From Candidatus Cloacimonadota bacterium (GTDB lineage Bacteria > Cloacimonadota > Cloacimonadia > Cloacimonadales > Cloacimonadaceae), in the NCBI GenBank assembly GCA_030154085.1, contig JASKKR010000020.1, positions 1 to 40,591 on the forward strand: 40,591 bases of DNA. The letters run 5' to 3'. Made by a program: the position numbers and the translations under genes. Under the pieces are notes generated by a model. The model did no database searches. It saw only the letters and a list, made by a program, of their open reading frames with translations, and was not told where the DNA came from. The number at the start of each line of letters is the position of its first letter. Position 1 is the stretch's first letter. Shown here piece by piece: positions 14,791 through 25,629 of this stretch.

Positions 14791-17700
14791 ATGAGTAATT
14801 TTATCACCAATACAGGCAGTGCACAGCTAAAGACCAGGCTTGTCACCCTTATCAAGGAAAGCCAGGAGTTAAAGTTCCTGGTAGGGTTCTTTTATTTCTC
14901 CGGGATCAGTGAGCTGATTGAGAGTTTGAAAGTCAATGCAGACCTATCTCTTAAGATACTGGTCGGTCTAAATGTGGACGCACAGAATTACGGTTTGGTT
15001 GAATACGCTGAAAAAGCTGGCAAGAAAAGAATCGAACGCATTGAAGACTATCATGAATCGGTACTGAAAGCCCTCAATAATGATGTCTTTGACAATGAGC
15101 TATTTTACAATCAAGCTGGCTACATCCTCGAACAAATCATTAATGGCAGGATTATCATCCGTAAGACATCCAGACCTAACCATGCGAAGCTCTATCTATT
15201 CAAACTTAAAGAAGATCAGGTAGTTCGCCCCAATCTCTTCATCACCGGGAGTAGTAACCTCAGCAAGGCAGGTCTCACCGATCGGGAAGAGTTTAATGTG
15301 GAAATCTCAGATTATGGCTTTGAAGAGGCAGAGAAATACTTTGATGAGCTTTGGAATTCTGCCATCCCGATTACTGAGACTGATATAGAGAAAACCAGGC
15401 TTATCTATAACGTCCGTGAAAATACACTACTGAAATCCGTCCATCCCTTCGATGCTTACATGTTTGTCGTAAAAACCTGGTTGGATAGTTTCTACAAACA
15501 AGAATCAGGCCGCTATATCTCACTCCTGCTGGAGAAAAAGGGCTACAAGCCTTTCAAATATCAGATTGATGCCGTCACACAAGCGCTTTCCATCATCGAA
15601 GATAATGGTGGAGTTATCTTGGCAGACGTAGTGGGCTTGGGTAAATCTATAATCGCTTCTTTGATAGCGCGTAAACTGGAGAAACGGGGCATCGTAATCT
15701 GTCCTCCCGGGCTAATCGGAGATGATAGTGCAAATTCGGGTTGGAAGAAGTATAAAGAGGACTTTGAATTGTATGATTGGGAAGTCCGCTCCGGAGGTGA
15801 TCTGGACGGTATAATTGAGTTCATTGGCAATACCGATGGCATCGAAGTGATCATAGTGGATGAAGCCCATCGTTATCGTAATAGCTCCACGGAAACCTAT
15901 GAAAAGCTGAAGACTATCTGTCGCGGCAGAAGTGTGATTCTGCTCACTGCAACTCCGTTTAATAACTCTCCCGCAGATATCCTTTCTTTACTCAGCCTGT
16001 TTATCGTCCCCAAGAAATCCAATATCACGCTCAGCAACAACCTGGTAGATCTTTTCCGGTTCTACAACGCCTTGTTCAAAGACCTCGCCTATATTCGCAA
16101 GAATTGGCAGTCCAAAGACCCGCTGAAGAAAGAGGAAGCCCGGAAGAAGTATCAGGCTCTGTTTGCAGAAAAAGAGGTCAAGATTAGCAAAGTCCTTGCC
16201 CGGGCTACTTTGCTCTCCCAACAGATCAGGGAAGTGATAGAACCTGTCACGATTAGAAGAAACAGGCTCGATCTGATCAATGACCCTGATTACCGTGATG
16301 AAGTTAAGAAGCTCTCCCAAATCGACAATCCCCAGGAGTGGTATTATCAGCTTACTCCTGAACAATCAGCTTTTTATGACCATGTGATTGAGCTTTATTT
16401 CACAGACAATCCCGAAAGTACGGAAAGGTTTAAGGGCCCTATATATAAGCCCTACCGCTATGAAGGTGATGAAACCAGTATGGAAAAACTCAGTCGGCAA
16501 GAGCAGATCGACCGCTTGAATCAGGATAACTTGTATGACATTTTGCGGCGACAGATGGTTAAACGCTTTGAGAGCTCATTTGGTGCCTTCCGGCAGAGCA
16601 TTGTTAATATTCGGGATTCCTATGAGAAAATCAAAGAGTTCATCAAGAGCTCAAACGGCAGATATGTGCTTAATCGCAAGCTGATAAACAAAGTGGATAG
16701 TGATGATCCCGACCAAATCGATGAATTGCTCCGCCAGTTCGCTGAAGAAAACAAAGATAAAGACAGCAAGAAAAACCGGATTTACGAGGTGAACAAATTT
16801 GCTTTCAAAGAGCAATTCTACGCCGATATTGAATCCGATATCTGTCTCTTTAACAAGATGATCACTGAGATTGATACCCTGGCTCTGGTAGAGAACGATC
16901 CCAAGCGTTTCGCCTTACTGCTGAATGTGGAAGCCACACTGCAAACATCACCAAACAAAAGAGAACCTGCTCCCAAAATCGTGATCTTCTCGGAGTATGC
17001 CGATACGGTCAAATACCTGGAGCCTGCTTTGAAAGAGCATTTCCCAGGTCGGGTTCTGGTTATCACGGGAAGTATCGGCAAACAGCATCTGGAAGAGATC
17101 AACACCAATTTTGACGCTGCCTATCCCAAATCTAAACAGAGGGATAACTACGATATACTGCTGTCTACTGATAAGCTCTCCGAAGGCTTCAACCTGAACC
17201 GGGCCGCAATGGTGATTAATTATGATATCCCCTGGAATCCAGTGCGGGTTATCCAGCGGGTGGGGCGTATCAACAGGATCAGTAAAAAAGTGTTTGATAC
17301 CCTCCACATCACCAATTTCTTCCCTACTGAGCAAGGTGCGGACATCGTAAAAAGCAGGGAGATTGCCTCAAATAAGATGTTTATGATCCATCAAACCCTG
17401 GGTGAAGACGCCCGCATCTTTGATGCTGATGAAGAGCCCAGCCCTGCCAAACTCTTTGCCAAAGTGCAAACCAATCCCTATGATCTGGATCAGGAAGGTC
17501 TCTACACCAAACTTAAGAAATTGATGCGGCTATGGGAAAAGCTTTATCCCGAAAGAGTAGAAGCCCTGGCAGAAATGCCAATTCGCATCAAAACCGCCAA
17601 AGCTTTTGACGTGGATTCGCTGGTCATGTTCATTCGCAAGGGTAAGCTCTTTAGCGTTAGCCAGGACTTCATGGATGAAAACAAGCAACTGATACCTCTC

Positions 17701-18150
17701 CCCATCGAGGAAGCACTACTTAGGATAGAATGCAGTCCGGACACAACGCAATTGCCTCTCAGTAAGAGTTTTTGGGAGGATTACAAAATGCTGAAAGAAG
17801 AAGCGGAAAAGTTCAGCTTCAAACAATCCCAACAGAGCAATTCGGTGAAGGCATTCAACTTCCTTTCTTACTTATTGGAGCAGGAAATAAGCGAACTTGT
17901 CCCTTGGCGATCATTCCTGATCATGCTCCGTGATGACATAGAAAACTATGGTACTTTGCCGGAATATACGCTTAAAAGCATCTGTGATTGGGAAAACGGC
18001 GGGAAGCCGGATTATCAGGTAATTGCCCAAGAATTGGAAAAACTGAGTAAGACCCTGGGCAAGAACTACCTGAAAAAAGTTAAAGATAGCCTGAAAGCCT
18101 ATGAACAACAGGTGATTGTGGCTATTGAAAACCAAGCAAAGGATATGTAG
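14791..18150 (+). CDS. PLD-domain SNF2/SF2 helicase (defence-type translocase)
   Basis: 1119 residues. The N-terminal phospholipase D-type nuclease domain has one HxK motif (H131, K133 in HAKLYLF) and the downstream GSSNLSKAGL (153-162). A single motif implies a dimer for activity, as in the BfiI class. An SNF2-type motor follows: Walker A ADVVGLGKS (about 275-283), DEAH in IIVDEAHRYRN (about 356-359), LLTATPFNNSP, and motifs V-VI STDKLSEGFN and QRVGRINRISK (about 820). The long C-terminal region is unassigned. The methyltransferase gene follows directly, so the pair resembles a restriction-modification system in which the motor-nuclease acts on unmodified DNA. DISARM-type systems also use PLD and SNF2 proteins, but no DrmA or DrmB is seen here. 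Confidence 0.85.
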   Translation: MSNFITNTGSAQLKTRLVTLIKESQELKFLVGFFYFSGISELIESLKVNADLSLKILVGLNVDAQNYGLVEYAEKAGKKRIERIEDYHESVLKALNNDVFDNELFYNQAGYILEQIINGRIIIRKTSRPNHAKLYLFKLKEDQVVRPNLFITGSSNLSKAGLTDREEFNVEISDYGFEEAEKYFDELWNSAIPITETDIEKTRLIYNVRENTLLKSVHPFDAYMFVVKTWLDSFYKQESGRYISLLLEKKGYKPFKYQIDAVTQALSIIEDNGGVILADVVGLGKSIIASLIARKLEKRGIVICPPGLIGDDSANSGWKKYKEDFELYDWEVRSGGDLDGIIEFIGNTDGIEVIIVDEAHRYRNSSTETYEKLKTICRGRSVILLTATPFNNSPADILSLLSLFIVPKKSNITLSNNLVDLFRFYNALFKDLAYIRKNWQSKDPLKKEEARKKYQALFAEKEVKISKVLARATLLSQQIREVIEPVTIRRNRLDLINDPDYRDEVKKLSQIDNPQEWYYQLTPEQSAFYDHVIELYFTDNPESTERFKGPIYKPYRYEGDETSMEKLSRQEQIDRLNQDNLYDILRRQMVKRFESSFGAFRQSIVNIRDSYEKIKEFIKSSNGRYVLNRKLINKVDSDDPDQIDELLRQFAEENKDKDSKKNRIYEVNKFAFKEQFYADIESDICLFNKMITEIDTLALVENDPKRFALLLNVEATLQTSPNKREPAPKIVIFSEYADTVKYLEPALKEHFPGRVLVITGSIGKQHLEEINTNFDAAYPKSKQRDNYDILLSTDKLSEGFNLNRAAMVINYDIPWNPVRVIQRVGRINRISKKVFDTLHITNFFPTEQGADIVKSREIASNKMFMIHQTLGEDARIFDADEEPSPAKLFAKVQTNPYDLDQEGLYTKLKKLMRLWEKLYPERVEALAEMPIRIKTAKAFDVDSLVMFIRKGKLFSVSQDFMDENKQLIPLPIEEALLRIECSPDTTQLPLSKSFWEDYKMLKEEAEKFSFKQSQQSNSVKAFNFLSYLLEQEISELVPWRSFLIMLRDDIENYGTLPEYTLKSICDWENGGKPDYQVIAQELEKLSKTLGKNYLKKVKDSLKAYEQQVIVAIENQAKDM

Positions 18151-18151
18151 C

Positions 18152-21100
18152 ATGAGTAAGATTGTTTTATCCCAAAACTTTTCTATCGACAACTGGCTAG
18201 ACTATTTCGATGCTCACTCGAATTATTTCACTCTCCTAAACTCTCATTCACGCCATTATCAAAATGATGATTTCAATACAGTTATCCAACTTGGAGTTAT
18301 AGAATTACCTGAAGGTAATGATGTATCTGTGTTTCTGATAAGTTCGACCCAGCAACTAAATGAGCGGTCTTACCGCAAGAAGCAATTTAATAAATCTGTT
18401 GATATCCTAAAAGCAGAAAACTCCCAGGCCGGTTTGTTTATATTTCATGATAATGATTACAGCTTTCGCCTAAGTCTTGTGTATCCTGTTTATAAGGGCA
18501 CAAGGAGAGGCTTTAGCAGTTTTAAACGTTTCTCGTACTATATTTCTGCAGAAACGCCTCATCACACCTACGAACAGCAACTTAGTCTGGTAAGATTTGA
18601 TGATCTGGCGACGATAAAGAGAGCGTTTTCTGTTGAACCAGTTACCAATGAATTCTTTATCGAAGTATCATTGAAATTCCTAGAACTGGTTAGTGGAGAA
18701 AGAAGGATTGGAAACAAATCATACAAATATCCTGGCATTTTGGTGCTGCCAACCTCAAACCCCGAAGCTAAGAAGGAATTTGCAGTCAGATTGTTGGGCA
18801 GACTCATCTTTTGCTGGTTTTTGAAGCTAAAAAAGTCAAAAAATAAAGTACCGCTAATCCCCAACCATCTGCTATCAACCGATGCTGTTGCACAGTTTAC
18901 AGACAGTAGTTACTACCACAGCATCATTGAACCTTTATTCTTCGAAGTACTTAACAAACACAAAGATAATCGAATATCAAAGTATCGAGGAGAATTTTGG
19001 GATACTATCCCGTTTCTGAACGGAGGACTCTTTGAACATGATAACATAGATTATTACTCACTAACAGAAACCGGAATATCAGTCTTCTTAAATACGGTTA
19101 AGATCCCCAATAAATGGTTTATGGACTTGTTTACGGTTTTCGAACGCTACAATTTTACCGTAGATGAATCTACCAGCTCCGACATCGAAATAGCCGTAGA
19201 TCCTGAAATGCTGGGAAAAATATTTGAAAATCTCTTGGCAGAATTAGATAAAGACACTGGAGAAACCGCCAGAAAAAAAACCGGTAGTTATTACACACCC
19301 CGTGATGTGGTAGATTACATTGTAAATACCAGCTTATATCATTACCTGTCAAGCCATCTTTCCATTGATGAACAAGCTATCCTACAATTGATTGAAACGC
19401 CTGATAACCCACCTTCGCTGCAGCCAGATGATATTAACCAGATACTTAATGTGATTAGCTCATTGAAGATTATGGATCCGGCTTGCGGTAGTGGAGCTTT
19501 TGTAATGGGAGCCATGCAGAAGATGATGGAGATTATCAAAGAATTGGATCCAAAATCCGATTATTGGAAAGGTAAGATTTTAAAAAGCATCGTTGATCCA
19601 GTATTCAAGCGCTACATAGAGGACAAGTTAAAGACAGAAAACCTCTATTATATAATAAAACTCGGTCTTATTAGGGACAACATTTACGGTAATGATATCC
19701 TTACTATGGCGGTGGAAATCTCAAAATTACGTTTTTTCCTATCTCTGATTGTAGATGAGACCATAGATGATGATAAAGACAACCGCGGTATCCTGGCTTT
19801 GCCTAATCTGGATTTTAAGTTTATTGCTGCAGATTATGTACTCGATTTGGCATCCTCAATAATGCATAATGCGAATTATTCCCCATATGTAACCGAACTC
19901 AAAGATATCATAGATAACTACTTCACAGCTTATGGATCAGAAAAGGAACAAATAAAACATCAATTCATTGTTAAGCAGAGGGAAATCAGTTTTAAACTAT
20001 CGCAATCTGCTCTATTAACACCGGATATTGCTGAACTACTCAATTGGAATCCCTTTTCTAATACCTCTGTTGATTGGTTTAACCCGGAATGGATGCTGGG
20101 TCTGAATGAGGATTTTGATATTATCATAGCCAATCCACCCTATGTGAGTAACAAGAATACTGATAAGAAAAAAGTACCGCTATACGTAGATAAATACGGC
20201 TTCTCCGATGACCTGTACAATTACTTTTTTATCCGTTCTTTGGATTTGGTCAAAACGGGAGGCATCCTTTCTTTTATAACCTCAAACACATACTTGTCAA
20301 TAAACTCAAAGCAAAACCTAAGAACGGCATTTCTTGATAACAGGATTATCGAGATATTCAAAATCGATAACCCCTTTGAGAATCCTATGGTCTCACCCGC
20401 CATCATAACCATACAGAAAACTGATGAATTCAAGAACTATGATTTAAGGTACAAGATTGCTGAAGAGCGGGAGGATTTCCTTGATCCCGCCGAATACAAT
20501 ATCAACACCTCAGTCTTCAAGAATACTGCCTTCAATACTTTTTTCCCTCCCACTGAGTTCAACATGCGGGTTTGGGATAAGTATGGAAAACAGATCAAAA
20601 GGCTTATAACTCAATACTGGTCTATGATTGATTCCAGTAAGGGTATCGCTAAGAACCAAAAGTACCTTGAGGAGTATCGCAGCTCATTAAAGCCTGGCGA
20701 TCTTACACTGCTGGGTCTGATAACTGAAGGTGGGCAAGGTTTGGCTACTGCAGATAATGGCAGATTTGTGGGTGTACGGGATAAAACCAAAGAAGCGTAC
20801 CGGATTAAAGCCACCAGAGCCCAGAAATTACTCAAGGCAGTAGTAAGTAAAAACATCCACAATCTTGGGATAGATTCATTACAGGATGCGAGAGACCTGC
20901 TTGCTGATATGGAAGAATTGGAGATAAGAGAGATGTTCAGTAGTTTGAAAAGTGGATATGGCAGGGACATTTTTGGCAGTGGTTATCTCTATCAGATTAT
21001 ATCAGAAAGCGAGATTGCTGACCCGGCAAAGATGAGTCCAGCCGATATTAGCAAAGGTATTGCGTCTGATAAACCTCACTTTGTTCCTTATGACAAAGGT

Positions 21101-21628
21101 GACAAGGACGGCAACCGCTGGTTCTTGGTCACCCCATATTGCCTTGACTGGTCAGAAGAAAGCGTACTTTATTATCAGACTAGTACTAATTGTAGGTGGC
21201 AAGGTTATAACTTCTATTTCCGTGAAGGCTTTTGTTGGAGTGATATAAACACGGTATACCTAAAATGCAGACTCAAGGGTAAAAGCGTCCACGATGTAAA
21301 GAGCATGAGTTTGTTTACACTAATTCCGAGCATTCCTGATTGGTTCTACGTTTGCATAATAAACTCATCATTCATTAGCGAGTACGTTAACGACTTTTTA
21401 AACAATACACAGACCTTCCAGATAAATGATGCCAGGCAACTACCGATAATTATCCCTTCCCAAGATCAGCTTGAGGAGTTTCACTGCATCTTCAATGATG
21501 CCTATGCGATAAAGCTTATGCAGTTTGCCGATGAGATATCGAAAAGCAAAGCGGAAGAGAAACTGGCACAGATACAACAGAACCTGGATGCCTATGTTTT
21601 AGATTATTACGGATTTAGCAATAATTGA
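18152..21628 (+). CDS. Eco57I-type N6-adenine DNA methyltransferase
   Basis: 1158 residues from the ATG at 18152, chosen because AAAGGA precedes it and it follows the helicase stop by one base; an upstream in-frame ATG lies inside the helicase gene. The N-terminal region (1-370) has the FLNGGLFE segment typical of Eco57I/type IIG-like enzymes. Then come KTGSYYTPRDVVDYI, the SAM-binding motif DPACGSGAF (about 441-449), NIYGNDI, and the catalytic NPPY (about 661-664 in IIANPPYVSNK). The C-terminal third looks like a target-recognition region (FQINDARQLPIIIPSQDQ). BREX PglX is related in architecture, but no other BREX genes are present. I see no certain nuclease motif of its own. Confidence 0.88.
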   Translation: MSKIVLSQNFSIDNWLDYFDAHSNYFTLLNSHSRHYQNDDFNTVIQLGVIELPEGNDVSVFLISSTQQLNERSYRKKQFNKSVDILKAENSQAGLFIFHDNDYSFRLSLVYPVYKGTRRGFSSFKRFSYYISAETPHHTYEQQLSLVRFDDLATIKRAFSVEPVTNEFFIEVSLKFLELVSGERRIGNKSYKYPGILVLPTSNPEAKKEFAVRLLGRLIFCWFLKLKKSKNKVPLIPNHLLSTDAVAQFTDSSYYHSIIEPLFFEVLNKHKDNRISKYRGEFWDTIPFLNGGLFEHDNIDYYSLTETGISVFLNTVKIPNKWFMDLFTVFERYNFTVDESTSSDIEIAVDPEMLGKIFENLLAELDKDTGETARKKTGSYYTPRDVVDYIVNTSLYHYLSSHLSIDEQAILQLIETPDNPPSLQPDDINQILNVISSLKIMDPACGSGAFVMGAMQKMMEIIKELDPKSDYWKGKILKSIVDPVFKRYIEDKLKTENLYYIIKLGLIRDNIYGNDILTMAVEISKLRFFLSLIVDETIDDDKDNRGILALPNLDFKFIAADYVLDLASSIMHNANYSPYVTELKDIIDNYFTAYGSEKEQIKHQFIVKQREISFKLSQSALLTPDIAELLNWNPFSNTSVDWFNPEWMLGLNEDFDIIIANPPYVSNKNTDKKKVPLYVDKYGFSDDLYNYFFIRSLDLVKTGGILSFITSNTYLSINSKQNLRTAFLDNRIIEIFKIDNPFENPMVSPAIITIQKTDEFKNYDLRYKIAEEREDFLDPAEYNINTSVFKNTAFNTFFPPTEFNMRVWDKYGKQIKRLITQYWSMIDSSKGIAKNQKYLEEYRSSLKPGDLTLLGLITEGGQGLATADNGRFVGVRDKTKEAYRIKATRAQKLLKAVVSKNIHNLGIDSLQDARDLLADMEELEIREMFSSLKSGYGRDIFGSGYLYQIISESEIADPAKMSPADISKGIASDKPHFVPYDKGDKDGNRWFLVTPYCLDWSEESVLYYQTSTNCRWQGYNFYFREGFCWSDINTVYLKCRLKGKSVHDVKSMSLFTLIPSIPDWFYVCIINSSFISEYVNDFLNNTQTFQINDARQLPIIIPSQDQLEEFHCIFNDAYAIKLMQFADEISKSKAEEKLAQIQQNLDAYVLDYYGFSNN

Positions 21629-21677: not shown

Positions 21678-22103
21678 ATGGACGGACATCATTGCTCAGA
21701 ATGCGCCCAAAAAAATCATGGGTTCAATCCAAATATTTATGACACAATTAACTTCACGGGTAGCAGCTATTTGCTTGGAAAGTATCTCAAACACACGCAA
21801 TTCATGAGTGGATCTGGAGCTATTTCAGTTTATGCATCATCTGATTACGATGATTATAGAAATTGTTTGTTAATATCTATCAACTCAGGATCAGTTGATA
21901 TCGCCAATGGGGTTGCTGTTAGTGCTGTTTGGAATGCATATCAGTTTCTTGGTGATACTTCTATTAATGGAGTTTATTCACATCCGTGTTTTGAAAACAA
22001 AGTGGTCAAGTTGGATGATTTATCAAAGACACATGGCTACTGCACTAATTCGTTTTCTATCCCTAATGGTTATTGTGTAGATTGTGGAAAACTAATTCAA
22101 TGA
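21678..22103 (+). CDS. Unknown small protein with terminal CxxC pairs
   Basis: 141 residues; I do not recognise the family. A CxxC pair lies at each end (HHCSECAQK near residue 7 and GYCVDCGKLIQ near the C-terminus). The two ends could therefore meet in one zinc site, with the middle domain between them (SGSGAISVYASSDYDDY, ISINSGSVDIANGVAVSA). No signal peptide or membrane segment is visible. AGGAG precedes the ATG. It lies 49 bp after the methyltransferase stop, in the same direction, and its stop overlaps the next start by 4 bp. A role in the island's system is inferred only from position. Confidence 0.7.
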   Translation: MDGHHCSECAQKNHGFNPNIYDTINFTGSSYLLGKYLKHTQFMSGSGAISVYASSDYDDYRNCLLISINSGSVDIANGVAVSAVWNAYQFLGDTSINGVYSHPCFENKVVKLDDLSKTHGYCTNSFSIPNGYCVDCGKLIQ

Positions 22104-22321
22104 TAAATGCAAAACTAATGTGCTTTGAAATACTGCCTTCGTCTGTGACATCACGAATAATAGCTGTTTTTCGATGCCAGTCCATTGCTTGGCAGAAAAG
22201 ACCGGGACGAAGTGTCTGTCTAACTCTTGGATTGACTGACCTGGAGATTAAAGAGCTATATGCTGGAATGCTTGAGCTGACAGCTAATAGACTCAGGAAA
22301 GCTAAGACATTCGTAAATTAG
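22100..22321 (+). CDS. Unknown 73-residue protein
   Basis: The start at 22100 overlaps the previous stop as ATGA, so translation is probably coupled; no independent Shine-Dalgarno is visible. The product begins MINAKLMCFEILPSS and has a basic middle (IAWQKRPGRSV) and a helical end (LGLTDLEIKELYAGMLE). The C-terminal helix is amphipathic. The family is not recognised. The next gene begins 17 bp later after a full AGGAGGTGAT. It is probably real given the spacing, but the evidence is limited. Confidence 0.5.
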   Translation: MINAKLMCFEILPSSVTSRIIAVFRCQSIAWQKRPGRSVCLTLGLTDLEIKELYAGMLELTANRLRKAKTFVN

Positions 22322-22338
22322 GAGGTGATGTAATTCTT

Positions 22339-23439
22339 ATGGCAACTCACAACATTGTTACATACCCAGGAAAGCCCTATTATGCATGCAAGTACGAGGA
22401 GCAGACCAAGATCAAACATCAAGTCTTCGCTTCGTACTTCGACACATGGGTCAAAATCGTTGGTAAAGATAGCCCTCTAAACTTCATTGATTGTTTTGGT
22501 GGTTGTGGGCTATATGATGATAATGGTAACCTACAACCAGGTAGTCCTATCATCGCAGCCCAGATTATTGAGCAGAATGCTATCTCTCTCAAAAGAGATT
22601 GTTGTGTTACAATACTTGATATTGATAAGAATTGCACGGATAACATTCCTCAGGCCTTCAAACTATTTAATTGCAATTGCAGTTATGAGTTAATCAACGC
22701 CGATTTCGAAGCATACATCAATACCGAGCTTGCTATGTTAGAAGCTAAAGGAAAAACACTTAGTCCCACATTCTTTTTGATAGATCCATATGGGTATAAA
22801 ATCAAGCTAGAAACAATAAAACGCCTTATGTCTGTAAAAAACAGCGAAGTTTATTTCAATTTTATGTTCAATGCCGTTAATAGAGGCATCAGTTCAGGTA
22901 AAGTTGACAATACAATGGATGAACTTTTCGGCTGCACTGAATGGAGGGATTGCCAACAGCTTCATGGAATTGAACGAGAAGCGTGCATTGTAGACTTGAT
23001 AAGGAACCAATTCAAGCAGTTCTCGAGATACGTCCTCCCATACAGGATATGTTTTCCATCGATAGATCGGACTTACTTTTATATGATTCATTTGACTAAC
23101 CATGTAAGAGGATGTGAGATTATGAAGGCATGTTTTGCCGAGTTGAATCATGGAAAGATAGAGTATATTGGTAAAAATCAGAATCAGAGCTTCATTTTCG
23201 ATCTAATTGAAGATCCTGTCCAAGAGATCGAATCATATATTAGCACTAATTTCAAGAATTCCCGAGAGTCATTCGATGAGTTACTTGATAAAATGATAGA
23301 TACAACACCATATCTTGGCAAAGACATATCTTCTGCAGTATTAAGTCTATACAACAGACAGTTGGCGAATATTAGGCGTGTTTCATCGAAGAGGCAAAGC
23401 AGTAAACCGACCAAAAAAGACATAATTGAGATTTACTAA
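22339..23439 (+). CDS. tcmP: Three-Cys-motif partner protein TcmP
   Basis: 366 residues. The N-terminal part has the TcmP pattern KHQVFASYFDTW followed by NFIDCFGGCGLYDDNG and PGSPIIAAQII, a Rossmann methyltransferase-like fold in which family members usually read F-AGPG; here it is FGGCG. A second block is FFLIDPYGYK, with FNFMFNAVNRG after it. TcmP proteins almost always sit next to a radical SAM protein of the phage Gp37/Gp68 (DUF5131) type, and that partner follows here after 2 bp. The function of the pair is unknown. A perfect AGGAGGTGAT lies 9 bp before the ATG. The FGGCG change may matter for cofactor binding. Confidence 0.85.
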   Translation: MATHNIVTYPGKPYYACKYEEQTKIKHQVFASYFDTWVKIVGKDSPLNFIDCFGGCGLYDDNGNLQPGSPIIAAQIIEQNAISLKRDCCVTILDIDKNCTDNIPQAFKLFNCNCSYELINADFEAYINTELAMLEAKGKTLSPTFFLIDPYGYKIKLETIKRLMSVKNSEVYFNFMFNAVNRGISSGKVDNTMDELFGCTEWRDCQQLHGIEREACIVDLIRNQFKQFSRYVLPYRICFPSIDRTYFYMIHLTNHVRGCEIMKACFAELNHGKIEYIGKNQNQSFIFDLIEDPVQEIESYISTNFKNSRESFDELLDKMIDTTPYLGKDISSAVLSLYNRQLANIRRVSSKRQSSKPTKKDIIEIY

Positions 23440-23441
23440 TA

Positions 23442-25274
23442 ATGATAAGAAAAACCTTGCTTTACAAAACAGGGGTTGAATACGGCGACTACACAATTAA
23501 CCATGTGTTGGGTTGTTCTCATGGTTGCAATTATCCCTGTTACGCATTTATGATGGCCCGTAGATTTGGACGAGTCAAAGACTATAATGACTGGTTACAA
23601 CCCAAGCTGGTGGAAAATTCACTGGACTTATTACGGAAAGAGATTCCCAAAAAACAGAAAAGCATTAAATCCGTGCATCTTTGTTTTACCACCGATCCAT
23701 TCATGGCTGAGTATCCCGAAGTAACCGAGATGAGCCTTGAAATCATCAAGTTGCTGGATCATTACGGTATCAAATGCACAGCACTTACCAAGGGAGTACT
23801 ACCTTCAGAACTTTCAAGATTTGATGATAAGCATGAATGGGGCATTTCTTTGGTTTCTTTAAATGAAGATTTTAGAAAGCATTATGAGCCCTTTTCTGCA
23901 GATTATACCACACGCTTAGCGAGTATGAAAAACTTGCACGATTGGGGTTGTAAAACATGGGTTAGCATAGAGCCTTATCCAACGCCTAATATTGTTGAGC
24001 AAGACTTGCGAGTCTTGCTTGATAGAGTTTCCTTTACTGATAGGATTATCTTTGGCAGGTTGCACTATAACAAGTTAGTATCAGCCTATATGGGATTTCA
24101 GGATTTCTACGATGATGCGATAACATCAGTAGTTACCTTTTGTAAGAGGCGAGGTATAGACTACCATATAAAAGAGAAAACGACTACCAAAGATTCTATC
24201 GAATACATTGAAAGAATAACGAAACCTGTGATCCCAATTCTGCATCATAATGATGCCAAGGATTTTAAACAATTCCAAAACTATCTAAACTATGCTGATC
24301 TTCCGGATAGCTACACCAACCTTTTATTCAAGTTAAAACTCGACAATTCTAAACTCAAAAAAACAATCAAGAAGTTATCAGATTCTAATAATAGCATTCA
24401 TTTCTTACATGAACTTATTGTAGGATATTCTCTTAATGAGTATTGCAAGAGGAACTCATTAAAGCTTGAGTACTCTCCGGAATGTAAATATTCAAATGAC
24501 GAAAAAACAGCAACTCCAGATTGGATTGTGTATGATGGAAACAAGAAAGTATTGATTGAAGTTGTCACTACAGATAAAAGCAAGCGACAAAGTGCCTTCA
24601 ACGCTTGTATTGGTTTGATACACAGCCTTGCTAGGGAGGGGTTAAAAAGCAATGGTATGAATACTGATCTTGATTTCAAAACGTCTAGGTTCAAAATACC
24701 TACTTTTCAAAATAAATTGGAAAAGCAAGTATTAACAGAATTTTGTAGGGTAGTTTCCAATAGAATTATCGCTAAAGTGATGCTTGGATATGGAATAGAT
24801 GAGTATGCAACTGATGATAGTGGTCTTAAGTTTAAAATAGGGTCAGGAGGCAAATCACACATGACAACTTGTGGGCATAAAACGTATAGAGTGGTTAACA
24901 ACATTCTTGATAAAGGAATGGCTTACAAAGAATTATCCAAGCAGATACCCATAATCGTGGCTGTGGCTGATAATCACAAAAACAGATCAGAAGCATACTC
25001 CCCCCAAGAAATAGCAAAGCTTCTTTACTACCCTAACACCGTCTATGAGTATCAGTTCAACAGGATAACCGATAAAGAAAAGCATATTAAGAATATACAA
25101 GACCGCATAGAAGATTTGAATGTACTGGAAGGCATTTTATTTTACGGTATCAATGTCAGCAGTATATATACAACTATTTATGAGTATTATCCGAATCCCC
25201 ACAAGACCACGAAGTGGGAAATTCCAGATAGATTCAAAGCTTACTTGGACGGAAGTAGTAATGAATGCATATAA
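23442..25274 (+). CDS. Three-Cys radical SAM protein (DUF5131/Gp37-like) with C-terminal extension
   Basis: 610 residues, about twice the usual length. Residues 1-270 form a radical SAM-like barrel of the spore-photoproduct-lyase/DUF5131 kind, with C25, C29 and C33 (GCSHGCNYPCYAFMMARRFG) spaced CX3CX3C, VHLCFTTDPFM and CTALTKGVLP. From about residue 310 a second domain begins. Around D360 and E373 (TPDWIVYDGNKKVLIEVVT) it resembles the PD-(D/E)XK nuclease core, although the lysine position after the glutamate is valine. The end of the gene overlaps the next start by 14 bp. It pairs with TcmP just upstream. A nucleic-acid-modifying role is a reasonable guess, unproven. Confidence 0.82.
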   Translation: MIRKTLLYKTGVEYGDYTINHVLGCSHGCNYPCYAFMMARRFGRVKDYNDWLQPKLVENSLDLLRKEIPKKQKSIKSVHLCFTTDPFMAEYPEVTEMSLEIIKLLDHYGIKCTALTKGVLPSELSRFDDKHEWGISLVSLNEDFRKHYEPFSADYTTRLASMKNLHDWGCKTWVSIEPYPTPNIVEQDLRVLLDRVSFTDRIIFGRLHYNKLVSAYMGFQDFYDDAITSVVTFCKRRGIDYHIKEKTTTKDSIEYIERITKPVIPILHHNDAKDFKQFQNYLNYADLPDSYTNLLFKLKLDNSKLKKTIKKLSDSNNSIHFLHELIVGYSLNEYCKRNSLKLEYSPECKYSNDEKTATPDWIVYDGNKKVLIEVVTTDKSKRQSAFNACIGLIHSLAREGLKSNGMNTDLDFKTSRFKIPTFQNKLEKQVLTEFCRVVSNRIIAKVMLGYGIDEYATDDSGLKFKIGSGGKSHMTTCGHKTYRVVNNILDKGMAYKELSKQIPIIVAVADNHKNRSEAYSPQEIAKLLYYPNTVYEYQFNRITDKEKHIKNIQDRIEDLNVLEGILFYGINVSSIYTTIYEYYPNPHKTTKWEIPDRFKAYLDGSSNECI

Positions 25275-25629
25275 TGAAACGAAGTATATTTCTCCCAATG
25301 AAAAAAAGGAGCTACTTGAAGTGATGGATAATCACTATCAGACATATCTGAGAGCAAGGTCTCTCACGCCCTTCCTAGACAAAACGATGATTGATAGACT
25401 TTTATCCTGTAAAACAAGAACCTGCTTCGATATCCCTACATCAACATTATACCAAAGCTTGGGCTATGATTGCCGTATAGTATTGAATTCGAGCCAGTTC
25501 GACACTAAGGAGAAGTGTCAGCAGTATCAGGATATCGGGCATTGGATTAACCAGAGTTTCTTTATTGAATTGAAATGCATTCTTGACACATTTATAAATT
25601 GGAAGGACAACCCGTCGCAGCAAGGTTGA
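25261..25629 (+). CDS. Unknown 122-residue protein ending the island
   Basis: The start at 25261 (MNAYNETKYISPNEKKEL) lies inside the end of the radical SAM gene, with GGA a few bases before it; a longer frame from 25120 would overlap too much. The product is charged, with a helical beginning (ISPNEKKELLEVMDNHYQTY) and a mixed core with cysteines (LLSCKTRTCFD, GYDCRIVLNSS). No membrane segment or known motif is seen. It is the last gene of the run, and the duplicated promoter block starts directly after it. Probably co-expressed with TcmP and the radical SAM protein. Confidence 0.65.
   Translation: MNAYNETKYISPNEKKELLEVMDNHYQTYLRARSLTPFLDKTMIDRLLSCKTRTCFDIPTSTLYQSLGYDCRIVLNSSQFDTKEKCQQYQDIGHWINQSFFIELKCILDTFINWKDNPSQQG

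Follow-up and report, generated by a model that had tools for sequence, protein, structure and literature searches.

A gene pair in the genome of a member of the Cloacimonadota (G000, 1.95 Mb) encodes a three-Cys-motif partner protein (TcmP) and a radical SAM protein whose C-terminal extension is probably a restriction-endonuclease-like domain, a fold class that we assign at moderate confidence. Many genomes and phages carry annotated TcmP/radical SAM pairs, and those related to the pair described here occur repeatedly beside restriction genes. We propose, as a reading with about an even chance of being correct, that the pair constitutes a nucleic-acid-modifying accessory module of restriction loci, equipped in this case with a tethered restriction-endonuclease-fold domain and placed within a putative composite anti-phage locus. 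To judge from gene neighbourhoods and distribution, it probably plays a role in phage defence. No paper on the function of TcmP or DUF5131 was found in the literature searched. A TcmP of Sinorhizobium (SMa2243) appears among upregulated genes, listed together with the phage-defence gene hna (PMC12445080). The sequence analysed, here called the window, is the whole stretch of 40,591 nucleotides of contig JASKKR010000020.1, and its relevant features are collected in Table 1.

Table 1. Features of the TcmP-radical SAM locus, in window coordinates
Feature	Position	Strand	Basis
PLD(HKD)-domain and Snf2 helicase (1119 aa), opening the restriction-like cassette upstream of the pair	14791..18150	+	Pfam PLDc_2, SNF2-rel_dom, Helicase_C
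Type IIG-like adenine methyltransferase, 1170 aa from first TTG	18116..21628	+	Pfam Eco57I E=1e-26, N6_Mtase
Remnant of another methyltransferase (~1200 aa), severed C-terminal tail just 5' of TcmP	22214..22312	+	76% identity over 33 aa to G017 tail
TcmP, 366 aa, three-Cys-motif partner protein	22339..23439	+	TIGR04474 E=1e-45
Radical SAM part, residues 1-250	23442..24191	+	Pfam Radical_SAM E=7e-7; relatives without extension
CX3CX3C cysteine motif (C25, C29, C33)	23514..23540	+	invariant, nine aligned relatives
Extension, residues 271-610, probable atypical PD-(D/E)XK (restriction-endonuclease-like) domain	24252..25271	+	five-member family; AlphaFold2 and structure search
E324, helix glutamate, HEL motif	24411..24413	+	invariant in 5/5 members
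D360 of TPDW	24519..24521	+	invariant in 5/5 members
E373 of IEVVT	24558..24560	+	invariant in 5/5 members
K379, six residues past E373, candidate displaced active-site lysine	24576..24578	+	invariant in 5/5 members
122-aa gene, overlaps radical SAM stop by 14 nt	25261..25629	+	alignment; relatives G030, L032, G005, G049

The TcmP-radical SAM gene pair

Gene order, the domain boundary within the fusion, the conserved residues and the recurrent link to restriction genes are direct observations. TcmP is followed on the same strand by the 610-aa radical SAM protein (23442-25274), exactly at the coordinates and in the reading frames given by the original prediction, and a Shine-Dalgarno-like aggagg (22320-22325) lies 5' of TcmP. 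The match of TcmP to TIGR04474 reaches 156.8 bits, above the curated cut-off of 53, and the adjacent radical SAM gene that goes with this family is present, 2 nt downstream and with its three cysteines. The C-terminal winged-helix domain of TcmP (residues 281-342) is recognised by Pfam GMT-wHTH (29.2 bits; cut-off 27). PDB sequence searches with TcmP and with the radical SAM part gave no useful match.

The SAM-binding motif of TcmP reads DCFGGCG. The FGGCG to which the original prediction had drawn attention, as a departure from the usual FAGPG, is literally present, but it is uninformative, because motif I (D.F.G.G) is variable among TcmP relatives (FGGCG, FAGCG, FCGKG, FGGIG, FSGPG or FAGYG); with its middle residues varying across TcmP, we rejected it as a sign of altered function. 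Some loci on viral contigs encode two TcmP proteins, both above the TIGR04474 cut-off and one with the degenerate motif IDCMCNSG. In L094 (3932-5967), tandem TcmP paralogues, one of them with a degenerate SAM-binding motif, precede the radical SAM gene, an arrangement that suggests a heterodimer.

The radical SAM protein scores above the gathering cut-off of Pfam Radical_SAM (PF04055, residues 19-194; 30.1 versus 29.5 bits) and below that of DUF5131 (PF07505; 21.7 versus 28.9 bits). Its CX3CX3C motif exceeds the canonical CX3CX2C by one residue. It is invariant in the nine aligned relatives and recurs in relatives from viral contigs; the spacing in other TcmP partners is CX3CX2C or, as in DUF5131, CX6CX2C. 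Stand-alone relatives of the radical SAM part (59-84% identity) are present in six genomes (G017, G005, G006, G040, G019 and G050). Compared with their sizes, 248-265 aa in five and 296 aa by the longest reading in G019, the window protein is indeed about twice as large as normal, as had been noted.

TcmP and radical SAM genes adjoin in nearly every locus, and in G125 the two proteins form a natural fusion of 596 aa (L064 8254-10044), encoded directly after the PLD-helicase and type IIG-like methyltransferase genes. On the strength of this near-constant adjacency and natural fusion, TcmP and the radical SAM protein belong together. The spread of TcmP in the phylum is patchy (16 of 125 genomes).

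The C-terminal extension of the radical SAM protein

The extension defines a family of five members. The fusion with a radical SAM part is found, besides the window, in G030 (83% identical overall to the window protein) and in L032, whereas in G034 two overlapping genes encode the radical SAM protein (255 aa) and, after it, the extension (379 aa), and in G085 the extension domain has a 330-aa gene to itself. The sequences indicate that the extension is a separate, mobile domain with its own history, joined to the radical SAM protein by gene fusion. L032 is a contig of a Bacteroidetes-labelled MAG; it may be mis-binned Cloacimonadota sequence, because this MAG is the only one among 395 sampled genomes of its phylum to carry a copy of the extension. 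No homologues of the extension were found in the phage, plasmid and viral-contig collections searched.

Comparisons among the fused copies (window, G030 and L032) give Nei-Gojobori dN/dS values of 0.33-0.36 in the extension, as against 0.07-0.13 in the radical SAM part; for the extension compared with G034 the value is 0.14, with synonymous sites saturated. The extension is therefore under selection, yet evolving faster than the radical SAM part.

Invariant in all five members are E324, P359-D360-W361, E373-V374, T376 and K379. D360 and E373 provide the conserved acidic pair (PD ... D/E) of the PD-(D/E)XK superfamily, and they are retained even in the member at 27-29% identity. The original prediction had placed these two residues in a PD-(D/E)XK-like spacing with valine at the lysine position, and the sequence (P359, D360, W361, then E373, V374, V375) bears this out; every homologue found keeps both acids. 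The canonical lysine, two residues past the second acidic position, occurs in none of the five members. As the family has V, V, V, V and F there, V375 is not a local mutation; an invariant lysine, K379, lies instead at E+6. The active-site lysine varies in position within the PD-(D/E)XK superfamily, and a missing E+2 lysine therefore does not exclude this fold. As far as the alignment goes, K379 is the obvious candidate to replace the usual residue. The extension could also be inactive, since the canonical lysine is missing throughout the family.

An AlphaFold2 model of the extension, built on a shallow alignment, has a mean pLDDT of 57, with a core (model residues 46-109 and 205-315) mostly at about 70-87; its elements follow the order helix-strand-strand-strand-helix-strand (alpha-beta-beta-beta-alpha-beta). 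The comparison with nuclease folds by which the prediction was to be judged came out in its favour, with neighbours that are mostly restriction-endonuclease-like proteins, at modest confidence. The best Foldseek match was an R2 retrotransposon protein (E-value 3.7e-3), in a list consisting mostly of R2 and cap-snatching endonucleases, Holliday junction resolvases and Bax1. VIA-align placed XisH first (Z 8.3, rmsd 3.2, 120 aligned), then an FdxN element excision factor (8.0), Can2 (7.2), Bax1 (7.0), SfsA (7.0), AF1548 (6.8), McrC (6.6), BsmI (6.5) and MunI (6.2), in a list that includes unrelated rows (e.g. acetyl-CoA carboxylase); by the tool's own note, Z values of 7-8 can be reached by chance or through common arrangements, and the fold alone is therefore moderate evidence. 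PspGI and the R2 endonuclease were also among the structure neighbours. The extension is best interpreted, from the predicted fold, the motif spacing and the invariance of the residues taken together, as an atypical PD-(D/E)XK domain.

Pfam nuclease families gave no match to the extension. A PDB sequence search with the extension profile returned weak xylanase-type chains only, which we took as chance, and a PADLOC PD-T7-1 match (residues 347-384, 20.8 bits) was too short to be relied on.

Flanking genes and module exchange

The helicase upstream of the pair matches the PADLOC profile C3a139 'HKD+Snf2' (E=4e-34), and copies of it occupy the same position in G030 (82% identical) and G006 (77%). 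The methyltransferase matches REase_MTase_IIG of PADLOC (E=2e-70); its true start is probably at 18152. In G030 and G006 the same helicase is followed by a methyltransferase of another type and then by TcmP and the radical SAM gene, while in G125 the helicase and methyltransferase precede the TcmP-radical SAM fusion protein. A 141-aa ORF of the window (21678-22103), without notable family match, has the methyltransferase on one side and the tail remnant on the other.

The small ORF preceding TcmP terminates in this remnant. The 63-aa tail concerned completes intact open frames of 1186-1203 aa in G007, G031, G010 and G025, and the same tail is found as a remnant 5' of TcmP in the window, in G017 and in G006. 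Read from these alignments, the remnant is a scar of module exchange, and the TcmP/radical SAM pair seems to ride at the 3' end of methyltransferase genes, swapped there.

The gene overlapping the radical SAM stop codon is a shortened copy of an all-helical protein, whose intact relatives (198-202 aa) carry the motif R[HN]LFAH, lost from the window copy. The copy beside TcmP in G005 has an internal stop, and G034 retains only about 40 residues. The motif resembles the R-x4-6-H motif of HEPN RNases and the intact relatives are modelled as helical; no HEPN chain was among the structure matches listed. A Fic gene accompanies the intact relatives of this gene in G030 and G005.

Association with restriction and defence genes

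Linkage of the pair to restriction genes is recurrent. Of 39 non-duplicate loci belonging to this radical SAM clade, about 25 have a restriction gene no more than some four ORFs away. These were counted visually in ORF lists, with selected proteins checked against Pfam; contig ends truncate some of the loci, and the viral collection is biased towards mobile elements. The neighbourhood survey proposed together with the original prediction has thus found the link widely. The neighbours include the PLD-helicase and IIG-like methyltransferase genes (window, G030, G006 and G125, grouped as such), type I genes (G019, L091), type III genes (L053 and eight viral contigs: L093, L094, L096, L099, L103, L105, L107 and L111), a methyltransferase with a helicase (G005, G040), Eco57I methyltransferases (L104, L117), GmrSD (L101, L102) and Dcm with McrBC (L114). 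The gene that comes third, behind the TcmP-radical SAM pair, is repeatedly of restriction type, namely GmrSD in L101/L102 and an Mrr-like nuclease in G017 (Mrr_cat 18.9 bits, just below the cut-off of 21). No restriction gene was seen near the pair in G050, L092, L106, L110, L112, L115 and L116. The entire window genome yields four PF02384 and five PF07669 matches, which overlap and correspond to four or five such methyltransferases; with so few of them, the rate of adjacency is far above random expectation (on the order of 1%).

Among more distant TcmP pairs, one adjoins BREX genes on a Nostoc plasmid, one adjoins a Druantia DruA gene, and one lies in a PLD-helicase/IIG-like locus with DarTG. 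PADLOC treats PDC-M30 and PDC-M41, distant TcmP/DUF5131 relatives, as candidate defence pairs. On the phage-like contig L023 (6625-11068), TcmP and the radical SAM gene are followed by PRTase-CE and a NADAR gene. Genes of defence islands cluster for many reasons, and the neighbourhood therefore reveals neither function nor substrate.

Proposed function and alternative explanations

In the explanation that we prefer, TcmP and the radical SAM protein would work as one enzyme unit acting on nucleic acid. TcmP, which combines a SAM-dependent methyltransferase fold with a winged helix, would bind and modify the nucleic acid, and the radical SAM enzyme would introduce a second modification by radical chemistry. 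A gene fusion in this lineage would have supplied the radical SAM protein with a PD-(D/E)XK-fold domain that has a likely metal site composed of E324, D360 and E373, and K379 in place of the usual lysine; this domain may cut or grip nucleic acid depending on its modification state. The pair, the upstream PLD/Snf2 helicase and the type IIG-like methyltransferase would together form a composite anti-phage locus. The substrate, the chemistry, the cleavage and the defence in this scheme are what we infer. The original suggestion, that the fusion implies action on nucleic acid and possibly defence, gains from the nuclease-like predicted fold and from the linkage to restriction genes, with cutting and defence themselves staying conjectural. 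It is a distinctly improbable extension of this scheme that one protein links radical SAM chemistry on DNA to a nuclease active site of restriction type. TcmP and the radical SAM part would then set or strip a hypermodification and the fused domain would cut according to this mark by means of the displaced lysine, as a self-contained modify-and-cut restriction enzyme.

The extension might have a PD-(D/E)XK fold and be no nuclease at all, acting as a DNA-/RNA-binding or structural domain that targets the radical SAM enzyme to the substrate. Consistent with such a role, each of the five members has V or F where the lysine would be, the extension evolves at a faster rate than the radical SAM part, and XisH and SfsA, neither of which we know to be a proven nuclease, rank among the best structure matches; a pure binding domain, however, would have no need of E324, D360 and E373, all of which are kept, and the invariant K379 could stand in for the absent lysine. 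We consider this explanation somewhat unlikely. The modification of tRNA and rRNA often involves methyltransferases together with radical SAM enzymes, and the pair could modify RNA (e.g. tRNA) rather than DNA, as repair or as immunity against RNA-targeting toxins, with the extension as an RNase or RNA-binding domain. Toxin-like neighbours (Fic, DarTG, PRTase-CE, NADAR and the R[HN]LFAH helical gene) and the RNA-cutting cap-snatching endonucleases among the structure matches agree with this, but the commonest neighbours of the pair are DNA restriction enzymes and DNA methyltransferases, and we regard a function in RNA modification as unlikely.

It also seems quite improbable that the fusion arose recently and by accident, within a defence island undergoing gene shuffling, when an adjacent nuclease-like gene lost its boundary, and that the parts have no joint function. 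The split, overlapping state in G034, the frequent exchange at the locus evidenced by the methyltransferase-tail scars, and the broken downstream gene in the window and in G005 are in line with such an event. However, three genomes have retained the fusion, purifying selection acts on both of its parts, and restriction-type genes recur in the third position (Mrr-like in G017, GmrSD in L101/L102). 

Taking into account the fusions and the repeated placement beside enzymes that read modifications (GmrSD, McrBC, Mrr) or make them (types I, IIG and III), the accessory role in nucleic acid modification that we favour is a testable idea. If it is true, radical SAM enzymes join the tools of restriction-type immunity.

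Comparison with known systems

The two genes upstream of the pair in the window, G030, G006 and G125 resemble the PLD(HKD)-Snf2 helicase and N6-methyltransferase systems represented by PADLOC C3a139. Similar HKD-Snf2 helicase and N6-MTase pairs occur in Type-2 BREX-related systems, and auxiliary PD-(D/E)XK and HEPN effectors have been described next to BREX-type loci (PMC12839542); unlike the window locus, these systems are presented in a text that makes no mention of radical SAM proteins or TcmP.

With the PD-(D/E)XK superfamily, the extension shares the PD and E residues in a D-x12-E spacing and the helix glutamate, and probably the alpha-beta-beta-beta-alpha core of its predicted model. It differs from this superfamily in having an invariant E+6 lysine instead of the E+2 lysine, and in matching no Pfam nuclease model.

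The best sequence matches of the radical SAM part are the NCBIfam families rSAM_PA0069, Rv2578c and rSAM_mob_pairB (E about 1e-9 to 1e-10), with scores of only 38-41 bits against curated cut-offs of 360-430; it therefore forms a clade of its own, distinguished from these families by the extra residue in the cysteine motif and by the TcmP partner. The two-gene layout is that of the PADLOC candidate pairs PDC-M30 and PDC-M41, composed of TcmP and a DUF5131-type radical SAM protein (window TcmP versus PDC-M30A, 8e-19; radical SAM part versus PDC-M41B, 7e-7). Unlike these pairs, whose PDC-M30B and M41B profiles have 241 positions, the window radical SAM protein represents a distinct CX3CX3C clade with a 340-aa extension of probable restriction-endonuclease fold.
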